Positions 714 through 9,322 of a stretch of 12,185 nt of DNA are shown here, piece after piece. Each line of letters opens with the position of its first letter. Within the stretch, counting starts at the first letter, position 1. The translations under genes and the position numbers were made by a program. The notes beneath the pieces were generated by a model. The model searched no databases, was not told the origin of the DNA, and saw only the letters and a program-made list of their open reading frames with translations. The stretch covers positions 1 through 12,185 of the forward strand of contig MHFL01000003.1 in the NCBI GenBank assembly GCA_001804165.1. Direction: 5' to 3'. Source of the stretch: Omnitrophica bacterium RIFCSPLOWO2_01_FULL_45_10. GTDB taxonomy: Bacteria > Omnitrophota > Gorgyraeia > 2-01-FULL-45-10.

Positions 714-851
714 GGCGGGTTTCCTTTCTTCGACTCGTCAACGAGCGGGGTTGGTGCCGTTATTTGCCCGAAACACGCATGGCATCGTAATGCGCGGGGT
801 TATAACTTCGGCATCGTAAAACAAATCTTGAGGGGAAAAGATAGAACCGAT

Positions 852-957
852 CTGGAATATTTCTAAATATAAATTTTGGAACATTTCCAATTACCCCGGG
901 TTCAACTTCAACCCGGCACTTTTGGAAATGTTCCGATCCTTTCCGTTGAAATGTTCC
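852..957. repeat. REP-like interspersed repeat, copy 1
   Basis: This is a nested inverted-repeat element. The core hairpin is CCGGGTT (896-902) and AACCCGG (910-916) with a 7-nt loop. It is flanked by GGAACATTTCC (878-888) and its complement GGAAATGTTCC (924-934), and by outer degenerate copies at 854-864 and 947-957. It ends 8 nt beyond the stop codon of the gene at 965. A relative lies at 2561-2651, also just past a stop codon. The stretch 714-851 between this repeat and the SIMPL gene holds no gene I can support, only the SIMPL Shine-Dalgarno and a 10-bp direct repeat GGCATCGTAA (781-790 and 810-819). Plausible roles are transcript 3'-end protection, attenuation, or a RAYT-mobilised palindrome; none is demonstrated here. 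Confidence 0.8.
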
Positions 958-964
958 GATTATG

Positions 965-1708
965 TTATACTTGTTTGGAAATGATTTCTTGAGGCAAAGA
1001 TTCGATGAATCTTTTTTTCTGTTCGAAGGATAATTTATGCGTTTCTTTGTCGTTGGGTTTACGAGTATACCAGATCACCTTTGGAAACTCCGGGTGCAAT
1101 TCATTGGCCATAACTAGATTAAAATCCTCAATCTTATACAGGTTGTAAAACCAGTAGCTATGAGTTTTGCCGTCCAAGCTATCAAGACCGGCAATTTCGG
1201 TAATGAGTAATTCAAATTGTCCATCGCCGTTTACATCGATGAAATCGGCAATATCAAAACCAAATGTGCCATAATGAATTTTTCGGAACTTTCCATCGCC
1301 TGTTTGCAAAAAAATAAAGATGTCGTCCCAATATCCCTGTAAACCTGCACCTAAACCATTCGTGTGAATGACAAAATCTTTGAACCCATTCTTGTCCACA
1401 TCAACGTAAAAGATATCACCAACCCAAAAAGATTCCTCGTGTTCTTCGTTTAAGGATGTAATCAGACGCCCCTCATAGAAAATTTCAATAAAATCACGAA
1501 CGTAACCAACGTTTGTCCGTGCTTTTTTTATCTCAATTTTCCCAATCTGGATGGTCTTTTCTTTTTCCATGTGAGTTATGACCGGTTGGACCGCAAGCGA
1601 GGAAAGATTGTTTTGTCCAAAAGGAAAAGGCGGATAGTTTTCAAGATAGGCTTGTCCGTCAACAGAAAATAAACTGACGGAAAACAACAGGATGATTAAT
1701 TGCCTCAT
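965..1708 (-). CDS. Secreted protein with two calcium-type (EF-hand/VCBS-like) loops
   Basis: This 247-residue protein has an N-terminal signal peptide (hydrophobic to about residue 20, likely cleavage near VDGQA). Two aspartate-rich loops fit the DxDxNG/DxNxDG calcium-binding pattern: DVDKNGFKD (residues 103-111) and DVNGDGQFE (158-166). Each is followed by a hydrophobic strand, as in VCBS/FG-GAP beta-propeller repeats. There are too few repeats for a full propeller. The ATG lies 34 nt downstream of the sigma-4/membrane gene at 1743, so the two are probably cotranscribed, although no strong Shine-Dalgarno is visible. A REP-like element follows the stop. The export and loop motifs are seen directly; calcium binding is inferred and the overall function is unknown. 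Confidence 0.8.
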   Translation of the reverse strand: MRQLIILLFSVSLFSVDGQAYLENYPPFPFGQNNLSSLAVQPVITHMEKEKTIQIGKIEIKKARTNVGYVRDFIEIFYEGRLITSLNEEHEESFWVGDIFYVDVDKNGFKDFVIHTNGLGAGLQGYWDDIFIFLQTGDGKFRKIHYGTFGFDIADFIDVNGDGQFELLITEIAGLDSLDGKTHSYWFYNLYKIEDFNLVMANELHPEFPKVIWYTRKPNDKETHKLSFEQKKRFIESLPQEIISKQV

Positions 1709-1742
1709 CTAAGTATTGTGTCCCTGGAACCAAGTACCTGAT

Positions 1743-2441
1743 TTACTTGGAACTATATTTTTTCTTTTGTTCTTCCAACCATTCGTCTGGCATTTGCATT
1801 TTCCTAAAGCAGTAAATACGAAAACATACGAACCCAACGATCAGGCTTAAAAGCACAAGAAACCAAATTTGCCAACTCACAAATATCCACCCCAAAAAAG
1901 CCCAAAGAAAAGTGGCGCAGAGAATCTTTGAAAACCAAGCTCCCCAAAGTCTTTTCGCTGCAGTTTGTTCTGGGTATTTAATCGCTTCATTTCTACGTTC
2001 AAGATCCCATTTGCGGAATTTTTCGGGTGTAAATAAATCGAGCCCTTGCGTTCTGATGCCGAGAGAAATTTCTGTATTAAAAAACATCTTGCTTTTTAGA
2101 TCCCACTGGTACCCACAATTCTCGATTGCATCCATAAGCTCTTCAACTTCTTGACGTGTTTTCTTCTCACCAAGAAAGGGGCTTAGAGAAATTAGTTCCT
2201 CGTAAGAAGGCCTCATTTTTACCCTCTTGAGCTTCTGGATCACTTTTACTTCAATCTGCTTAATCCTCGCTGGGGTAATATTGAAAACTTGTCCAACCTC
2301 TTCTAGCGTCCTGCAGTATCCGTCTCCTATTCCCCATCGCAATCTGATAACTTTTTCCTCTCGTTCTGTTAGTCTGTTATCGTTTATCAATTTCATCAAT
2401 TCTGCTTTAATTGTGGTTTGATTCCAAGATCGTTCAACCAT
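1743..2441 (-). CDS. Sigma-70 region 4-like domain fused to two transmembrane helices
   Basis: This 232-residue protein has three parts. Residues ~22-73 closely resemble region 4 of housekeeping sigma-70 factors: [16 protein letters not shown], then TLEEVGQ.FNIT and [15 protein letters not shown]. That is the helix-turn-helix which reads the -35 element and contacts the RNA polymerase beta flap. Regions 1-3 are absent, so it cannot be a complete sigma factor. Residues ~74-165 are soluble and unrecognised. Residues ~168-211 contain two hydrophobic helices separated by one or two residues (a hairpin), followed by a basic, charged cytoplasmic tail. GGAAG sits 7 nt before the ATG. The neighbour downstream (965-1708) is a secreted protein, probably in the same transcript. 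The HTH could bind DNA from the membrane or modulate RNA polymerase; either is inference. Region-4 homology is strong, the fusion is unusual. Confidence 0.82.
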
Positions 2442-2465
2442 TAAAAAACTTCCAATTTCGATTTC

Positions 2466-2493
2466 ATTTTATTCGGCTTTTGTCTTAATTCAA
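2466..2493 (-). promoter_or_regulatory. Candidate sigma-70 promoter for the sigma-4/membrane gene
   Basis: On the minus strand, TTGAAT (2488-2493) is followed after 16 nt by TAAAAT (2466-2471). Transcription would begin near 2459 and give a leader of about 18 nt that still contains the GGAAG ribosome-binding site. The match is moderate and based on consensus only. Confidence 0.35.
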
Positions 2494-2497
2494 TTGA

Positions 2498-2553
2498 TGT
2501 TATTTTACTCCGTTTTTTCGAATCGCGCCAAGCTAAAAAGCGGCCAGTTTAAG
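2498..2553. repeat. ~54-nt hairpin repeat, copy A
   Basis: This sequence recurs at 9270-9322. Shared blocks are TGTTATTTTACTC, TTTTTCG, CAAGCTAAAAAG and CCAGTTTAAG, with a few substitutions and two small indels. It can fold with CCGTTTTTT pairing to AAAAAGCGG (one G-U pair). Here it sits between the sigma-4 gene promoter and REP copy 2, far from any antitoxin gene, whereas copy B overlaps the end of one. It may be the leftover 3' flank of a lost antitoxin gene or an independent structured element. Confidence 0.7.
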
Positions 2554-2560
2554 AAAATAC

Positions 2561-2651
2561 TGGAACATTTCTAAAAGTGTCGGGTTTGATTCGTTAGACC
2601 TGGCACCTGCGGAAATGTTCCAATTAATGGATCAATTAATTGAAATGTTCC
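2561..2651. repeat. REP-like interspersed repeat, copy 2
   Basis: GGAACATTTCT (2562-2572) is matched by inverted copies GGAAATGTTCC (2611-2621) and GAAATGTTCC (2642-2651). They surround a degenerate core (AGTGTCGGGT ... ACCTGGCAC) equivalent to the hairpin of copy 1 at 896-916. It ends 2 nt before the stop codon of the nuclease-like gene at 2654. The outer arms are doubled as in copy 1, so the unit is a family rather than a chance palindrome. Confidence 0.75.
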
Positions 2652-2653
2652 AA

Positions 2654-3313
2654 TTAATGAACAAAATTCCCCCCATAATCAGAAAAATAACGCAAACATT
2701 CAGTGTGAAGTTTATTATCGCTTCGTTGCCAAGCGGGCAAGACTTCATAGTTCAAAATCCATGGGCTTTTTTCATCTTGGTATATTTCAACCCCGGCTGT
2801 TGAGTATGTCCAATCGATCCTCATGCGATAATACTGGCAAACCAAAATAACATCACTGTTAGCCGCCCAATCATCTATCCATCCATAACACCAAAGTTGC
2901 GCGCACACGTTTGGCCAAGCATCTGGTGGAACATGACTATCTTCCCACGTGGTAGTCTTTCGCTCTAAAATTACTACGATACCTTTTTCTTCATCGCGAA
3001 ATACGACGTCGGGCCTACATCGCATAGGTTTACCATCAACGAGCAGACGAGAAGCAAAAAAAGTGCGAGCTTCCATATCTGTGCATGCATCTGCATAAAC
3101 CAGTTTCCAATTTGATGATATGCCAGTCGCTAAATTATTAGCGTTAAGGTGGGACGCAATTCTATCAATTTGCACATGAGCATATTGCCCAAGCTTCTTC
3201 CGATTAACAACTACCGAAGAATGCTCAGCATTTTGATAATTCGGATTATTTTTTCTAAAAACCCAATCTGCGAAATGCGTTGCTGTACCGCGAACGATAT
3301 CGTAATCAGCCAA
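2654..3313 (-). CDS. PD-(D/E)XK nuclease-like protein (RecB/Cas4-like motif)
   Basis: This 219-residue soluble protein carries a recognisable PD-(D/E)XK core: Pro101-Asp102 in RPDVVFRDEEKG, then a strand ending ILERK (Glu117, Lys119), then AQLWCY (Gln139, Tyr143), which resembles the Q..Y motif of RecB- and Cas4-type nucleases. This fold cuts DNA or RNA with a divalent metal bound by the acidic residues. No helicase, Cas, methylase or integrase gene is adjacent, so its pathway is unknown. The start is uncertain. The best in-frame start codon is TTG at 3311-3313, with a weak GGTTGG upstream. The frame stays open for 28 further codons to a stop at 3398-3400 without ATG, GTG or TTG. The motif is seen directly; nuclease activity is inferred. 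Confidence 0.7.
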   Translation of the reverse strand: MADYDIVRGTATHFADWVFRKNNPNYQNAEHSSVVVNRKKLGQYAHVQIDRIASHLNANNLATGISSNWKLVYADACTDMEARTFFASRLLVDGKPMRCRPDVVFRDEEKGIVVILERKTTTWEDSHVPPDAWPNVCAQLWCYGWIDDWAANSDVILVCQYYRMRIDWTYSTAGVEIYQDEKSPWILNYEVLPAWQRSDNKLHTECLRYFSDYGGNFVH

Positions 3314-3380
3314 TTTACCAACCGAATGGTTTGGAAACGTTAAATAACGTGTTTTTTCGTTTCCCCCAACATTACCTATT

Positions 3381-3791
3381 TTAGGTATCAGCGGAACTTA
3401 CCCACCTGATTGCCATCTTCTCCACTATCCAAATGCTTTCGGGATTTGAAGGAAATGCTTTTTGTAAATAAACGACATGTTCTTTGCCTTCATAGACAAT
3501 TTTAACGATGGCGCTATGACCCTTGAGTTCTAAACTTGCCGGTAATTTCTCTCTTTCGTTGGGATCTAAATTCGGATAATAAGAATTCATGAAGTGTTTT
3601 GCGTAATACTCTGGGTCGAACCGCCAGGGCTGATGGCCTTCATCAACCATTTTTTGGATTGAAACAAGTCCGTCATCATCAAAATGTTCAGCGTTAGGTA
3701 TGTCCGCCGGATAAACAATCTGATCTGCAGAAACACTCGCCGCACGAAAAAATAAAATCAAAGTCGCCATTAAGCAAACGGTTAATCGCAT
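3381..3791 (-). CDS. Secreted protein of unknown function, second gene of a broken operon
   Basis: This 136-residue protein begins MRLTVCLMATLILFF and has a typical signal peptide ending VSA before DQIVYP. The mature part contains VDEGHQPWRFDP near residue 50 and ends in two beta-type segments (AIVKIVYEGKEHVVYL, IWIVEKMAIRW). I know of no function for it. The frame is open upstream to 3923, but that part is antisense-like overlap with the gene before it. The ATG at 3789-3791 lies 5 nt after the TAG of the interrupted gene ending at 3797, so the two form a tight operon. The IS inside the upstream gene probably cuts this gene off from its promoter near 5601-5629, unless an outward promoter in the IS replaces it. 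Confidence 0.78.
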   Translation of the reverse strand: MRLTVCLMATLILFFRAASVSADQIVYPADIPNAEHFDDDGLVSIQKMVDEGHQPWRFDPEYYAKHFMNSYYPNLDPNEREKLPASLELKGHSAIVKIVYEGKEHVVYLQKAFPSNPESIWIVEKMAIRWVSSADT

Positions 3792-4241: not shown

Positions 4242-4270
4242 TTGAAAGTTGAGTCTCTGGGTGTTAAAAA
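4242..4270 (+). promoter_or_regulatory. Candidate IS promoter
   Basis: TTGAAA (4242-4247) is followed after 17 nt by TAAAAA (4265-4270), just inside the left IS end and 20 nt before orfA. A strong Shine-Dalgarno (AAAAGGAGG, 4275-4283) lies 7 nt before the orfA ATG. Confidence 0.4.
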
Positions 4271-4290
4271 GCACAAAAGGAGGCTCGACA

Positions 4291-4557
4291 ATGCCGCGTA
4301 AAAGATACACAGAAGAGCAGATTATCGGGGTATTAAAGCAAGCGGAAGCAGGGGTGAAAACACCGGATATTTGCCGTGAGCACGGGATTAGCAATGCTAC
4401 CCTTTACAAATGGAAGGCCAAGTTCGGTGGAATGGAAATAAGTGATGCACGCAAACTCAGGGCTTTAGAGGATGAAAATCGCCGGTTGAAACATATCGTC
4501 GCTGATTTAACCCTGGACAATCAAGCGCTGAAGGCGATTAACTCAAAAAACTTCTAA
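4291..4557 (+). CDS. IS3-family OrfA (helix-turn-helix transposase subunit)
   Basis: This 88-residue protein has the HTH_Tnp_1 fold: [17 protein letters not shown], then [24 protein letters not shown] (helix-turn-helix, residues ~5-45). A leucine-rich coiled coil ([23 protein letters not shown]) mediates oligomerisation in this family. It binds the terminal inverted repeats and, fused to OrfB by frameshift, forms the transposase. The ATG at 4291 is chosen over the upstream in-frame start at 4249 because AAAAGGAGG lies 7 nt before it. The 3' end carries A_AAA_AAC at 4545-4551 in the zero frame, the expected -1 slippery heptamer. Confidence 0.93.
4545..4551 (+). promoter_or_regulatory. Programmed -1 frameshift site (A_AAA_AAC)
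   Basis: In orfA phase the codons are tcA AAA AAC, a canonical X_XXY_YYZ heptamer two codons before the orfA stop. Slipping back one base continues as [15 protein letters not shown] into orfB with no stop, giving the OrfAB fusion transposase. Confidence 0.75.
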
Positions 4558-4583
4558 GGCCCAGGGCGAAACGGCTCGCAGCC

Positions 4584-5426
4584 GTGTTTACGGTCGAGCG
4601 CTTTGGGCTGAGCATCCGGAGAGCGTGCAGGATCGTCGATCTTTGGCGTTCGACTGAGAGTTACAAGCCGAAACATCCTGAGAGGGATGAGCTGCTTCGT
4701 ACGAGAATGAAAGAGCTGGCTGCTCAAAGGCCCAGGTTTGGTTCTTTGAGGCTGCATGTGATCTTAAAACGAGAAGGACTGGTAATGAATCATAAGAGAA
4801 CGGAAAGAATCTATCGGGAAGAGAAACTTTCTTTAAGGACGAGAAGACGCAAGAAACGTTCTTCTGAGCTCAGGGTTCCCATTCCGGCGCCTGAGTGTCC
4901 CAACGAAAGGTGGTCGATGGATTTTATTCACGCCAGGCTTGCCAACGGCCGCAGGTTTAAATCTCTGACTATTGTGGATGATTACTCAAGAGAATCACCA
5001 GCCATCGAAATGGACACATCCATTCCGGGAGCAAGGGTAGTGCGGACGCTCAATCGGCTTAAAGAAACGAGAGGGATCCCCAAAGTGATTGTGACAGACA
5101 ACGGACCTGAGTTTATCAGCAAAGCGCTTGATGAATGGGCTTATGCGAACGGTGTAAAACTTGATTTCATTGATCCGGGCAAACCGACTCAAAATGCATT
5201 CATCGAAAGCTTCAACGGCAAACTCCGGGATGAATGTTTAAACGAATACTGGTTCTTAACCCTTGAAGAAGCTAAAATCACAATTGAAGACTGGAGGATC
5301 GATTACAACGAAGTCAGACCGCATAGCTCTCTGGACAATTTAACCCCGGCAGAATATGCGACGCAATATCAACAGAAAGCGTTAACCCAAAACACCGAAG
5401 AACTCAACTCACAAATGGCCCAATAA
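4584..5426 (+). CDS. IS3-family OrfB (DDE transposase catalytic subunit)
   Basis: The rve-type integrase core has its catalytic triad intact: Asp113 in WSMDF, Asp172 in VTDNGPEF and Glu208 in [16 protein letters not shown] (numbered from the GTG at 4584). There are 35 residues between the second Asp and the Glu, as expected for IS3. An HTH_21-like region ([28 protein letters not shown]) precedes the core. [15 protein letters not shown] near the end is the usual C-terminal signature. The frame is open back through the slippery site at 4545, so the main product is probably the OrfAB fusion rather than a protein begun at the GTG. It catalyses copy-out/paste-in transposition through a circular intermediate in this family. 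No disabling changes are seen. Confidence 0.95.
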
Positions 5427-6206: not shown

Positions 6207-6275
6207 CGGGTGAGCGACGGGAATTGTTAGCGAAGCAATCCCTTTAGGGAAACCCGCAACCCCAAGATCCACAAT
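6207..6275 (-). pseudogene. 3' half of tRNA-His with an insertion in the T loop
   Basis: Two blocks match the tRNA-His copy at 9061-9131 exactly: 6208-6226 (19 nt) and 6251-6275 (25 nt). They are separated by a 24-nt insertion (6227-6250) that splits the T loop. The match runs from the middle of the anticodon loop to the CC of the encoded CCA and then stops, as expected of an integrase attachment-site copy rather than a gene. The D arm and acceptor 5' strand are absent, so it cannot make a tRNA. Confidence 0.8.
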
Positions 6276-6454: not shown

Positions 6455-7543
6455 TCAATCTACTGCAGCCGGTTCCGGTCTTGGTTGCGCAGTTTGTTGC
6501 GGTCGAGGTTGTATAGGTTGCGCTGGTCGAAGTTGCATCTGTTGAAGTCCCATTACTGCTTGAAATTGCCTTCCCCAGGATACACCATGCATACTCTCAT
6601 ACAATTTTACGAAAGGACTGACACTAAAAAATCCGTTTAACAAAATATACGCTTCCCATAAGAGATCACATAAAGGATTGCTGGCAATTTGAAGCTTCAA
6701 GTCAAACTCACTTAATTTCTCAGGTGTTAAAGGCCGAGAATGCATTTTATGAGTATCGTAGTCTGAAAAAAAGGCAACAGCTTTTTTAATTTTATAAGAA
6801 ACAGCCCTTTTAACTTTACTGTCACCTTTTTGCTCGTTTGCAAACATATACTTTTTGAGCCAGGACGATACTAATTCTTTAGACAAATTTTCTGAATCTT
6901 GACAAAGTTCAAAAAGATCAAGTGAGTATTTTTCAATCAGCGGAATATAAGCAGGTAAAGCTTCCGGCCCTTCTTTTTTTATTGTAGTTCTTGCTTTCTT
7001 AAAACCATTCACGATTGACTTTGCAGGAACGAAACGTAATCCTTCTTTTGTTGGGACACCAACCTGAGGGTCTATCGGACCAAGCGTTGCGCTTGGGTGA
7101 AAAATTACATTGTTGCCAGATAATGCAAGCATTGTAGCAGCAGAATACGCAGAATGAGGAATGAGAAAGTTTACTTCTTGAAACTTATTGCGGAGCAATC
7201 CGACAATGCGCTCCGTTGCATCAGGTCGTCCGCCCGGACTATGTAAAAGCACATCAACCGAAGAATGATTGCTGCCAACAGAATTTATGAGATCAGTAAA
7301 TCCATCAACATCAGATAGGTCAATTTGATTTGGAATGTTAGGTGGACCACCATCTAGAAATTTTGTTGCATAAATCAAAAGCGGATGGCCGCGTAATGCT
7401 TCTATTTCGGCGTAACACGCTTTGCGAAGGTCGAATAAGCTTTGCCCGGTTATTCCCTGACCAGATTGAAGCAAAGGACCAATAAAATCATTCCAGTCCT
7501 GCGTTGATTTAAATCTCTTGCGCGGTTGTTGAGTGGACTCCAT
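6455..7543 (-). CDS. SDH-family Clp-fold serine protease
   Basis: From the ATG at 7541-7543 the protein has 362 residues. It matches the SDH_protease/ClpP-crotonase-fold family (PF01972 type): LLHSPGGRPDATERI (residues ~99-113) is the ClpP-like glycine loop, PHSAYSAATMLALSG (~129-143) contains the likely nucleophile Ser134, and ATLGPIDPQVG (~152-162) is the conserved loop after it. There is no signal peptide or membrane helix, so it is probably cytoplasmic. The C-terminus is a Pro/Gln/Arg-rich low-complexity tail of about 25 residues. The frame can also begin at TTG 7558, but the ATG is preferred. Its start overlaps the end of the small gene 7509-7745 by 35 nt, suggesting translational coupling. 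Substrates are unknown. Fold assignment is strong; proteolysis is inferred. Confidence 0.87.
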   Translation of the reverse strand: MESTQQPRKRFKSTQDWNDFIGPLLQSGQGITGQSLFDLRKACYAEIEALRGHPLLIYATKFLDGGPPNIPNQIDLSDVDGFTDLINSVGSNHSSVDVLLHSPGGRPDATERIVGLLRNKFQEVNFLIPHSAYSAATMLALSGNNVIFHPSATLGPIDPQVGVPTKEGLRFVPAKSIVNGFKKARTTIKKEGPEALPAYIPLIEKYSLDLFELCQDSENLSKELVSSWLKKYMFANEQKGDSKVKRAVSYKIKKAVAFFSDYDTHKMHSRPLTPEKLSEFDLKLQIASNPLCDLLWEAYILLNGFFSVSPFVKLYESMHGVSWGRQFQAVMGLQQMQLRPAQPIQPRPQQTAQPRPEPAAVD

Positions 7544-7745
7544 AACGATTGATTTCAAAGTTTAACGTGGAACCAGTGCCCGATTTAAATGCCATTTCTT
7601 TTCCTGATGCGAGGTCCGAGCGTTCAATGATATCGACGGTTTTTTTGTAAGCATCGTAGGTTTGAAACGCAACAATATTTTTGTCCACAACACGTTTTGA
7701 AGCTACCTTGCCCACTAATTTTATGAGAGATGCTCTACTCATCAT
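7509..7745 (-). CDS. Small protein of unknown function, near-leaderless, coupled to the protease
   Basis: This 78-residue protein starts MMSRASLIKLVGKVASK; either of the two adjacent ATGs (7743-7745, 7740-7742) could be used. It is basic at the N-terminus and beta-rich later (NIVAFQTYDAYKKTVDIIE; STLNFEINRYG), with no signal peptide or known domain. A near-perfect promoter lies so close that the mRNA would start 2-3 nt before the first ATG, and no Shine-Dalgarno is visible. Its 3' end overlaps the protease gene by 35 nt, so the two almost certainly form one unit. It could be an adaptor, regulator or substrate of the protease; that is inference from position only. Confidence 0.7.
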   Translation of the reverse strand: MMSRASLIKLVGKVASKRVVDKNIVAFQTYDAYKKTVDIIERSDLASGKEMAFKSGTGSTLNFEINRYGVHSTTAQEI

Positions 7746-9060: not shown

Positions 9061-9138
9061 TGGGGTGAGCGACGGGAATTGAACCCGCAACCCCAAGATC
9101 CACAATCTTGTGCTCTAACCAGATTGAGCTATTAAACG
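9061..9138 (-). tRNA. tRNA-His(GUG) lacking a matching 5' acceptor strand (probable pseudogene)
   Basis: Minus strand: D stem GCTC/GAGC, anticodon stem CAAGA/TCTTG around loop TTGTGGA (anticodon GTG), 5-nt variable loop, T stem GCGGG/CCCGT, acceptor 3' strand CGCTCAC, discriminator C73 (diagnostic of bacterial tRNA-His) and an encoded CCA. Everything from U8 (9131) to the 3' end is intact. The seven bases where the 5' acceptor strand should be (9132-9138, CGTTTAA) form no pairs with CGCTCAC; the expected GTGAGCG and G-1 are absent. It is therefore a 5'-truncated copy, probably left by integration at a tRNA-His gene. A functional copy should exist elsewhere. A tRNA finder may still report it. 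Confidence 0.75.
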
Positions 9139-9222: not shown

Positions 9223-9270
9223 GTGCATACGTCGCATACGCCGGACGGCGTCCCGAGGGAGACGACGTGC
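9223..9270. other. GC-rich nested inverted repeat
   Basis: Inner arms ACGCC/GGCGT around GGAC and outer arms ACGTCG/CGACGT form a nested foldback. It is much richer in G+C than its surroundings and lies between the tRNA copy and hairpin repeat B. No T-run follows directly. Its role is unknown. Confidence 0.4.
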
Positions 9271-9322
9271 TGTTATTTTACTCTGCTTTTTCGGATCGCC
9301 AAGCTAAAAAGCCAGTTTAAGC
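9270..9322. repeat. ~54-nt hairpin repeat, copy B
   Basis: This is the partner of 2498-2553. It overlaps the stop codon (9317-9319) of the antitoxin-like gene. GCTTTTT pairs with AAAAAGC across a 14-nt loop. Copy A has CCG and CGG added at the base of the same stem, which keeps pairing and suggests that the structure is conserved. Confidence 0.7.

Follow-up and report, generated by a model that had tools for sequence, protein, structure and literature searches.

What can region 4 of a sigma-70 factor do when the other sigma regions are missing and the domain is joined to a membrane segment? The question is raised by a gene for a 232-aa protein. The window, i.e., the whole stretch of DNA that was analyzed, is 12,185 bases long and constitutes an entire contig of a 1.43 Mb assembly (64 contigs, 86.7% complete). 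To judge from its sequence, two modules have been fused in frame in the gene product, a case seen once, because the homologue of residues 76–232 in a related genome is a free-standing protein that starts at the position of M76. The relevant features are listed below.

1743..2441, minus strand: fusion gene; the 232-aa protein consists of sigma-70 region 4 (residues 23–72), a linker, and a membrane segment
2226..2375, minus strand: Sigma70_r4 domain (PF04545), residues 23–72, 66% identical to region 4 of the genome's own RpoD
2223..2273, minus strand: recognition-helix stretch, residues 57–73, with P, A, and K at the positions of E. coli R584, E585, and R588 (RpoD alignment)
2214..2216, minus strand: M76, the fusion junction, an internal ATG that lies 6 nt behind a GAGG core (AAGAGGGTAAAAATG)
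1746..2216, minus strand: membrane module, residues 76–232, homologous to a free-standing 138-aa protein (phylum-draw search and alignment)
1806..1925, minus strand: hydrophobic stretch, residues 173–212, with two segments of transmembrane length (173–190 and 193–212)
2502..2531, minus strand: promoter-like TTGGCG-18-TAAAAT that lies 5′ of the fusion gene (promoter scan)
965..1708, minus strand: gene that follows the fusion gene after 34 nt; its product is of the secreted type and has two FG-GAP-like calcium-loop motifs

A lone region 4 of the housekeeping type

An earlier note on this DNA described region 4 of the housekeeping type, devoid of the remaining sigma regions and joined to a membrane segment. 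This core observation is confirmed by profile search, tblastn, and composition. Residues 23–72 match PF04545 with 47.6 bits, the curated cut-off being 24.1, and share 33 of 50 residues with the genome's own RpoD. The solved structures that match this region best by sequence are those of RpoD/SigA; the best NCBIfam models for the fusion protein are likewise RpoD models, matched over their last part only; and the class RpoD consensus is matched at 32 of residues 24–73. Because 24 of the 33 identical residues use a codon different from that of the own RpoD, region 4 is evidently kept at the protein level (9 of the 50 codons are the same in both genes, 24 show silent differences, and 17 encode another residue). 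A codon-usage test of coding applied to the whole gene was not informative (z −0.38).

Sigma regions 2 and 3 have no Pfam match in the fusion protein, and tblastn with the own RpoD detects region 4 only, with no match to regions 1–3 anywhere in the window, as the claim that regions 1–3 are absent implies. A pseudogene or truncated remnant of a full sigma factor was considered and rejected on the same tblastn result. Region 2, which a sigma-70 family sigma factor needs for core binding and −10 recognition, is not part of the fusion protein.

On the 5′ side of the gene, an in-frame stop codon lies 9 sense codons ahead of the ATG, which is preceded by GGAAG. The promoter scan of 800–3400 gave 5 sites, compared with 6.8 expected from shuffles; the total is not above chance. 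As a separate observation, a 54–59 nt repeat, 85% identical between its copies, occurs at 2495–2553, upstream of the fusion gene, and at 9268–9321, at the end of a copG-type antitoxin gene; the former copy contains the promoter-like sequence.

Replacement of the −35-reading residues

E. coli numbering was obtained by matching residues 24–73 to 551–600 of E. coli RpoD (3iyd_F), the two stretches being of equal length. The comparison set comprised 30 RpoDs of the class, including the own RpoD, after removal of four window-locus copies, L032 (which duplicates the own RpoD), and L057 (a phage protein). R584, E585, and R588 are R, E, and R in 30/30 class RpoDs and are replaced by P57, A58, and K61 in the fusion protein (TPARIKQ vs TRERVRQ). 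Within the recognition helix, residues 55, 57, 58, 60, 61, 65, and 67 differ from residues invariant in 30/30 class RpoDs, and residues 32 and 36, outside the recognition helix, are also changed at fixed RpoD positions. R59, Q62, and K66 of the recognition helix, at the positions of R586, Q589, and K593 of E. coli RpoD, are unchanged relative to the class RpoDs. The position of F563, which is F in 30/30 class RpoDs, is occupied by W; this substitution could matter for polymerase contact.

PMC2613000 reports contacts of R584 and E585 with positions −31 and −33, as well as relaxed specificity at −33 caused by the R588H substitution; PMC8407463 names R584, E585, and Q589 as −35 readers. Because R584, E585, and R588, taken here as the mark of RpoD-type −35 recognition, are all replaced, region 4 of the fusion protein should not read −35 boxes in the manner of RpoD. 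A new DNA preference and none at all are both possible. The loss of contact residues, which the earlier note had named as a result that would count against its reading, is seen in part: three of these residues are gone, and Q589, R586, and K593 stand.

The membrane module is a separate protein in a relative

Among the 383 other genomes of the phylum draw, residues 76–232 have one clear homologue, in a genome of the same class and a different family (G441; E 5e-25, 39% identity, 54 of 137 aligned residues identical). The search program reported its frame as 146 aa; reading of the DNA gives a free-standing membrane protein of 138 aa that begins at a GTG. Two sense codons separate this GTG from a preceding in-frame stop, and tblastn found no region 4 within the surrounding 8 kb. 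Because the start of this protein, MMKPTYEEL (the first M being the GTG), aligns with KMRPSYEEL of the fusion protein, homology begins at M76. The two proteins share several blocks, including GWIF, and identity at codon positions 1, 2, and 3 is 0.47, 0.65, and 0.36; the comparison indicates that the membrane half is conserved at the protein level. Homologues devoid of the membrane part had been proposed as evidence against a tethered region 4, and the outcome is the reverse, since in the G441 protein the membrane part is present and it is the sigma part that is missing. Because the sole clear C-terminal homologue is without a sigma part, the locus represents one fusion and not a demonstrated family of membrane sigma proteins.

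M76 deserves attention for another reason. GAGG, GGAG, or AGGA cores precede 2 of the 27 internal in-frame ATGs in eight window genes. Because M76 has such a core (GAGG) at a distance of 6 nt, this start may leave room for a second, membrane-only product, which we regard as a lead and not as a finding.

Other searches with the module were negative. No relative past a meaningful threshold turned up in Pfam, NCBIfam, PHROGs, or PDB; the protein search returned 1 match, the protein itself, among 54 candidates; the best other match in 384 class genomes has an E of 0.0097; a pattern search found no relatives in the collection of genome contigs; and there is no phage match. The G441 homologue has no match in plasmids or phages, and the two-row alignment of the module has none in viral contigs. 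The view that the C-terminus is an ORFan was overturned by the G441 homologue in the 384-genome phylum draw. Matches at E 0.0097–0.93 in 59 other class genomes were taken as chance, as was a match in G428 (E 5.9e-4) that covers 50 residues of the hydrophobic part and contains one internal stop.

Hydrophobic segment and topology

Residues 173–207 are strongly hydrophobic and contain no D, E, K, R, H, or N, which bears out the claim that region 4 is joined to a membrane segment; by composition, the protein has the hydrophobic segment of transmembrane length expected of an integral membrane protein. The flank 150–171 has 4 K+R and 2 D+E, and the flank 208–232 has 7 K+R and 4 D+E. The charge composition suggests that both ends of the protein lie in the cytoplasm. 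A two-helix hairpin is likely by length, whereas both AlphaFold2 runs give a single helix spanning about 157–215 (mean pLDDT 76.0 and 74.6; pTM 0.45 and 0.37). The G441 homologue carries Pro and Lys at the presumed turn.

Searches for further fusions

No second fusion was found among the protein-search matches, in 384 class genomes, or in 384 phylum genomes, the two genome samples being overlapping and the protein searches being word-based, of a kind that also missed the G441 relative. In 117 class genomes, the only RpoD-like region 4 frames below 250 aa are that of the window and those of G054 (100 aa) and G130 (150 aa); the latter two, both of which begin in the first 250 bases of a contig, are likely cut RpoDs. 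G026 (246 aa) was read by eye as a cut RpoD with regions 2–4, and frames of about 270–370 aa with an RpoD-like region 4 are probably other sigma factors or cut RpoDs. All phage matches of the fusion protein cover region 4 (29/29 records); the plasmid matches listed (30 of 146) lie over region 4, some reaching about residue 130; and the annotated features at the phage and plasmid matches listed are mostly rpoD or sigma factors. RluD matches in other genomes, at 36–52%, may represent a paralogue. For Lgt, the best named match, at 61% identity, is from a Candidatus Omnitrophota bacterium; the sequence of the best named relative stops shortly after rluD and thus does not cover the present locus.

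Some region 4 matches in other genomes fall inside frames of 5081, 2716, and 2443 aa, and a 2762-aa frame (L034, G000:C60:14509-17643) has, by eye, sigma regions 2–4 in mid-protein, with region 4 at 35.1 bits. Sigma-like domains within giant proteins merit attention of their own.

The secreted neighbor and the surroundings of the locus

The protein encoded at 965–1708 has a signal-peptide-like start and two calcium-loop motifs, which FG-GAP_3 matches below its cut-off (E 3.1e-4). It has three relatives at 59–75% in the protein collection and homologues in 7 of the 383 other class genomes. By tblastn, neither region 4 nor the membrane module occurs around any of these 7 (stretches of 4.3–10 kb, some limited by contig ends), and their gene neighbors, read by eye, vary by locus. 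The pairing of fusion gene and secreted neighbor is seen in this genome only, and a conserved signaling pair is not supported. The members of this secreted-type family in the 7 other class genomes (L155–L161) mostly have an AYxExYPPYxF-like start.

The neighborhood of the fusion gene looks variable because of transposase genes (4249–5426) and a partial tRNA copy (6208–6275 against 9063–9106). The partial tRNA was found by Rfam at 9072–9131 on the minus strand (ARAGORN reported none); its anticodon, GTG by eye, makes it tRNA-His. The tRNA part at 9063–9131 is repeated at 6208–6275 with a 24-nt insertion, a probable scar of an element spanning ~6.2–9.1 kb. Inside that stretch, 6455–7558 encodes an SDH-type ClpP-like protease (PHROG 11747, E 2.6e-47, function unassigned). 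The product of 2654–3313 has, by eye, a PD...ERKT pattern like that of PD-(D/E)XK nucleases and no Pfam match above the cut-off. Long hairpins at 878–934 and 2561–2622 bracket the two-gene stretch 965–2441; their arms (GGAACATTTC/GAAATGTTCC) are 73% alike, folding z-scores are −4.4 to −7.4, and each hairpin has an extra half arm 23–30 nt further along. Elsewhere in the genome, only pieces of ~20–30 nt match them.

Comparison with known systems

Membrane-tied sigma factors, split sigma factors, flap-binding substitutes, and stand-alone region 4 proteins are already known. ECF52 proteins such as SCO4117 of Streptomyces also have a sigma domain tied to the membrane via a C-terminal transmembrane part but, as described in PMC5826349, they contain a whole ECF sigma domain, a zinc finger, and a carbohydrate-binding module, and belong to Actinobacteria; the present protein combines a housekeeping-type region 4 alone with an unrelated membrane module. 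Its TIGR02937 match scores 31.3 bits against a cut-off of 42.9 and covers positions 104–163 of 165 only, and Pfam detects no zinc finger in it. In SigO-RsoA of B. subtilis, the sigma regions are split over two proteins (PMC10141391), whereas here the sigma piece itself sits in the membrane. A partner gene with the other sigma regions, as a SigO-RsoA-like arrangement has next to it, was not found within the window, either by Pfam among the 15 window proteins or as an RpoD 1–3 match. The separate T4 protein gp33 takes the place of region 4 on the beta-flap helix but, according to PMC7892883, is structurally unrelated to region 4, while the fusion sequence is a true region 4.

Closer in composition is a 151-aa protein of a viral contig (L057), in which a housekeeping-type region 4 is also the sole Pfam match; unlike the fusion protein, it has R, D, and C at the R584, E585, and R588 positions and, by eye, no obvious hydrophobic stretch. 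The contig (the gene lies at L057:1948-2403) is T4-like by its neighbors, read by eye, and the protein keeps R at 584. Short BFVD entries named Sigma70_r4 are among the matches listed. The UPF0122 (YlxM) structures 1xsv and 1s7o resemble the fusion protein in fold only, with 12 and 14% identity, in a comparison that effectively covers model residues 4–76; UPF0122 is absent from its Pfam matches (E up to 1, HMMER filters on). CadC and ToxR have a DNA-binding fold different from region 4, and an outer sensor domain. The likeness is that a cytoplasmic DNA-binding domain is held by a membrane segment (PMC5430869); in the fusion protein, ~20 residues lie beyond that segment. Matches to MzaA of MZA defense are partial (56.8 bits vs a cut-off of 800, positions 640–716 of 726 only; in PADLOC, 606–657 of 683).

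The combination of a lone housekeeping-type region 4, an altered −35 code, and fusion to a separately existing membrane module was not found elsewhere. No membrane protein with region 4 only was found among the papers listed in the literature search, whose reach excluded most subscription journals.

Interpretation

The reading that we tentatively prefer, while placing it somewhat short of an even chance, is that of a membrane-tethered region 4 module that would contact RNA polymerase and/or DNA and is not itself a sigma factor. On this reading, a stray housekeeping-type region 4 has been fused in frame to a small membrane protein that is a separate gene in a relative. Because both ends probably lie in the cytoplasm, region 4 would be attached to the membrane on its cytoplasmic side. 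The domain would keep its fold and most likely dock to the beta-flap tip of RNA polymerase and/or to DNA, in the latter case with a sequence preference that is weak or altered. It would thereby bring RNA polymerase or a DNA site to the membrane protein, as a local tether or regulator.

An accidental fusion, in which the function resides in the membrane protein, region 4 is carried along, either tolerated or decaying, and the M76 start may even yield the free-standing form, is in our opinion unlikely. It would account for a fusion seen once, whose sole clear homologue has no region 4, for the coincidence of M76, with a GAGG core 6 nt ahead of it, with the start position of that homologue, and for a locus amid genes without a Pfam family, transposase genes, and a tRNA-copy scar. 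Random decay, however, is not what 66% identity to the own RpoD, encoded mostly by different codons, looks like, and region 4 contains no stop or frameshift.

We likewise doubt that the protein is a membrane-tethered DNA-binding regulator in the manner of CadC/ToxR, with region 4 as a re-targeted helix-turn-helix whose job is not polymerase docking. Membrane-bound DNA-binding activators such as CadC are known (PMC5430869), and the many changes in the recognition helix, in which R59, Q62, and K66 stay, would suit a new target; but the fixed positions 32 and 36 outside that helix are changed too, and there is no sizeable outer sensor, given that a hairpin loop would comprise a few residues and that the tail after the membrane segment is short.

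Two further proposals concern the polymerase itself. That region 4, having lost its −35 code, is an adaptor that parks RNA polymerase by the beta flap at the inner membrane, with both the fusion and a membrane-only product from M76 being made, is quite improbable. Still less is to be expected of a decoy or brake that, without binding DNA, reduces sigma-70 transcription by competing with RpoD region 4 at the beta flap. The domain is kept while its base-reading residues are replaced, and T4 gp33, which clamps the same flap helix, alone represses gp55-dependent transcription; yet gp33 and region 4 are structurally unrelated (PMC7892883), and W occupies the F563 position. An assembly or binning artifact or a pseudogene is highly improbable: the window is a whole contig of an incomplete, 64-contig genome, and the protein cluster of the fusion is a single sequence on 2 contigs, but the frame is open through the junction, homology starts exactly at the start of the relative, and the membrane half is conserved at the protein level.

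Significance

If the domain is idle, the locus is still instructive, since it shows that what looks like a new regulator can be the product of a gene fusion in variable DNA. If the domain works, a housekeeping region 4 would have found a second use as a membrane adaptor, independent of promoter recognition, and the protein would be a natural test of what region 4 is capable of without its base-reading residues, for which the free-standing relative offers a matched control without region 4.
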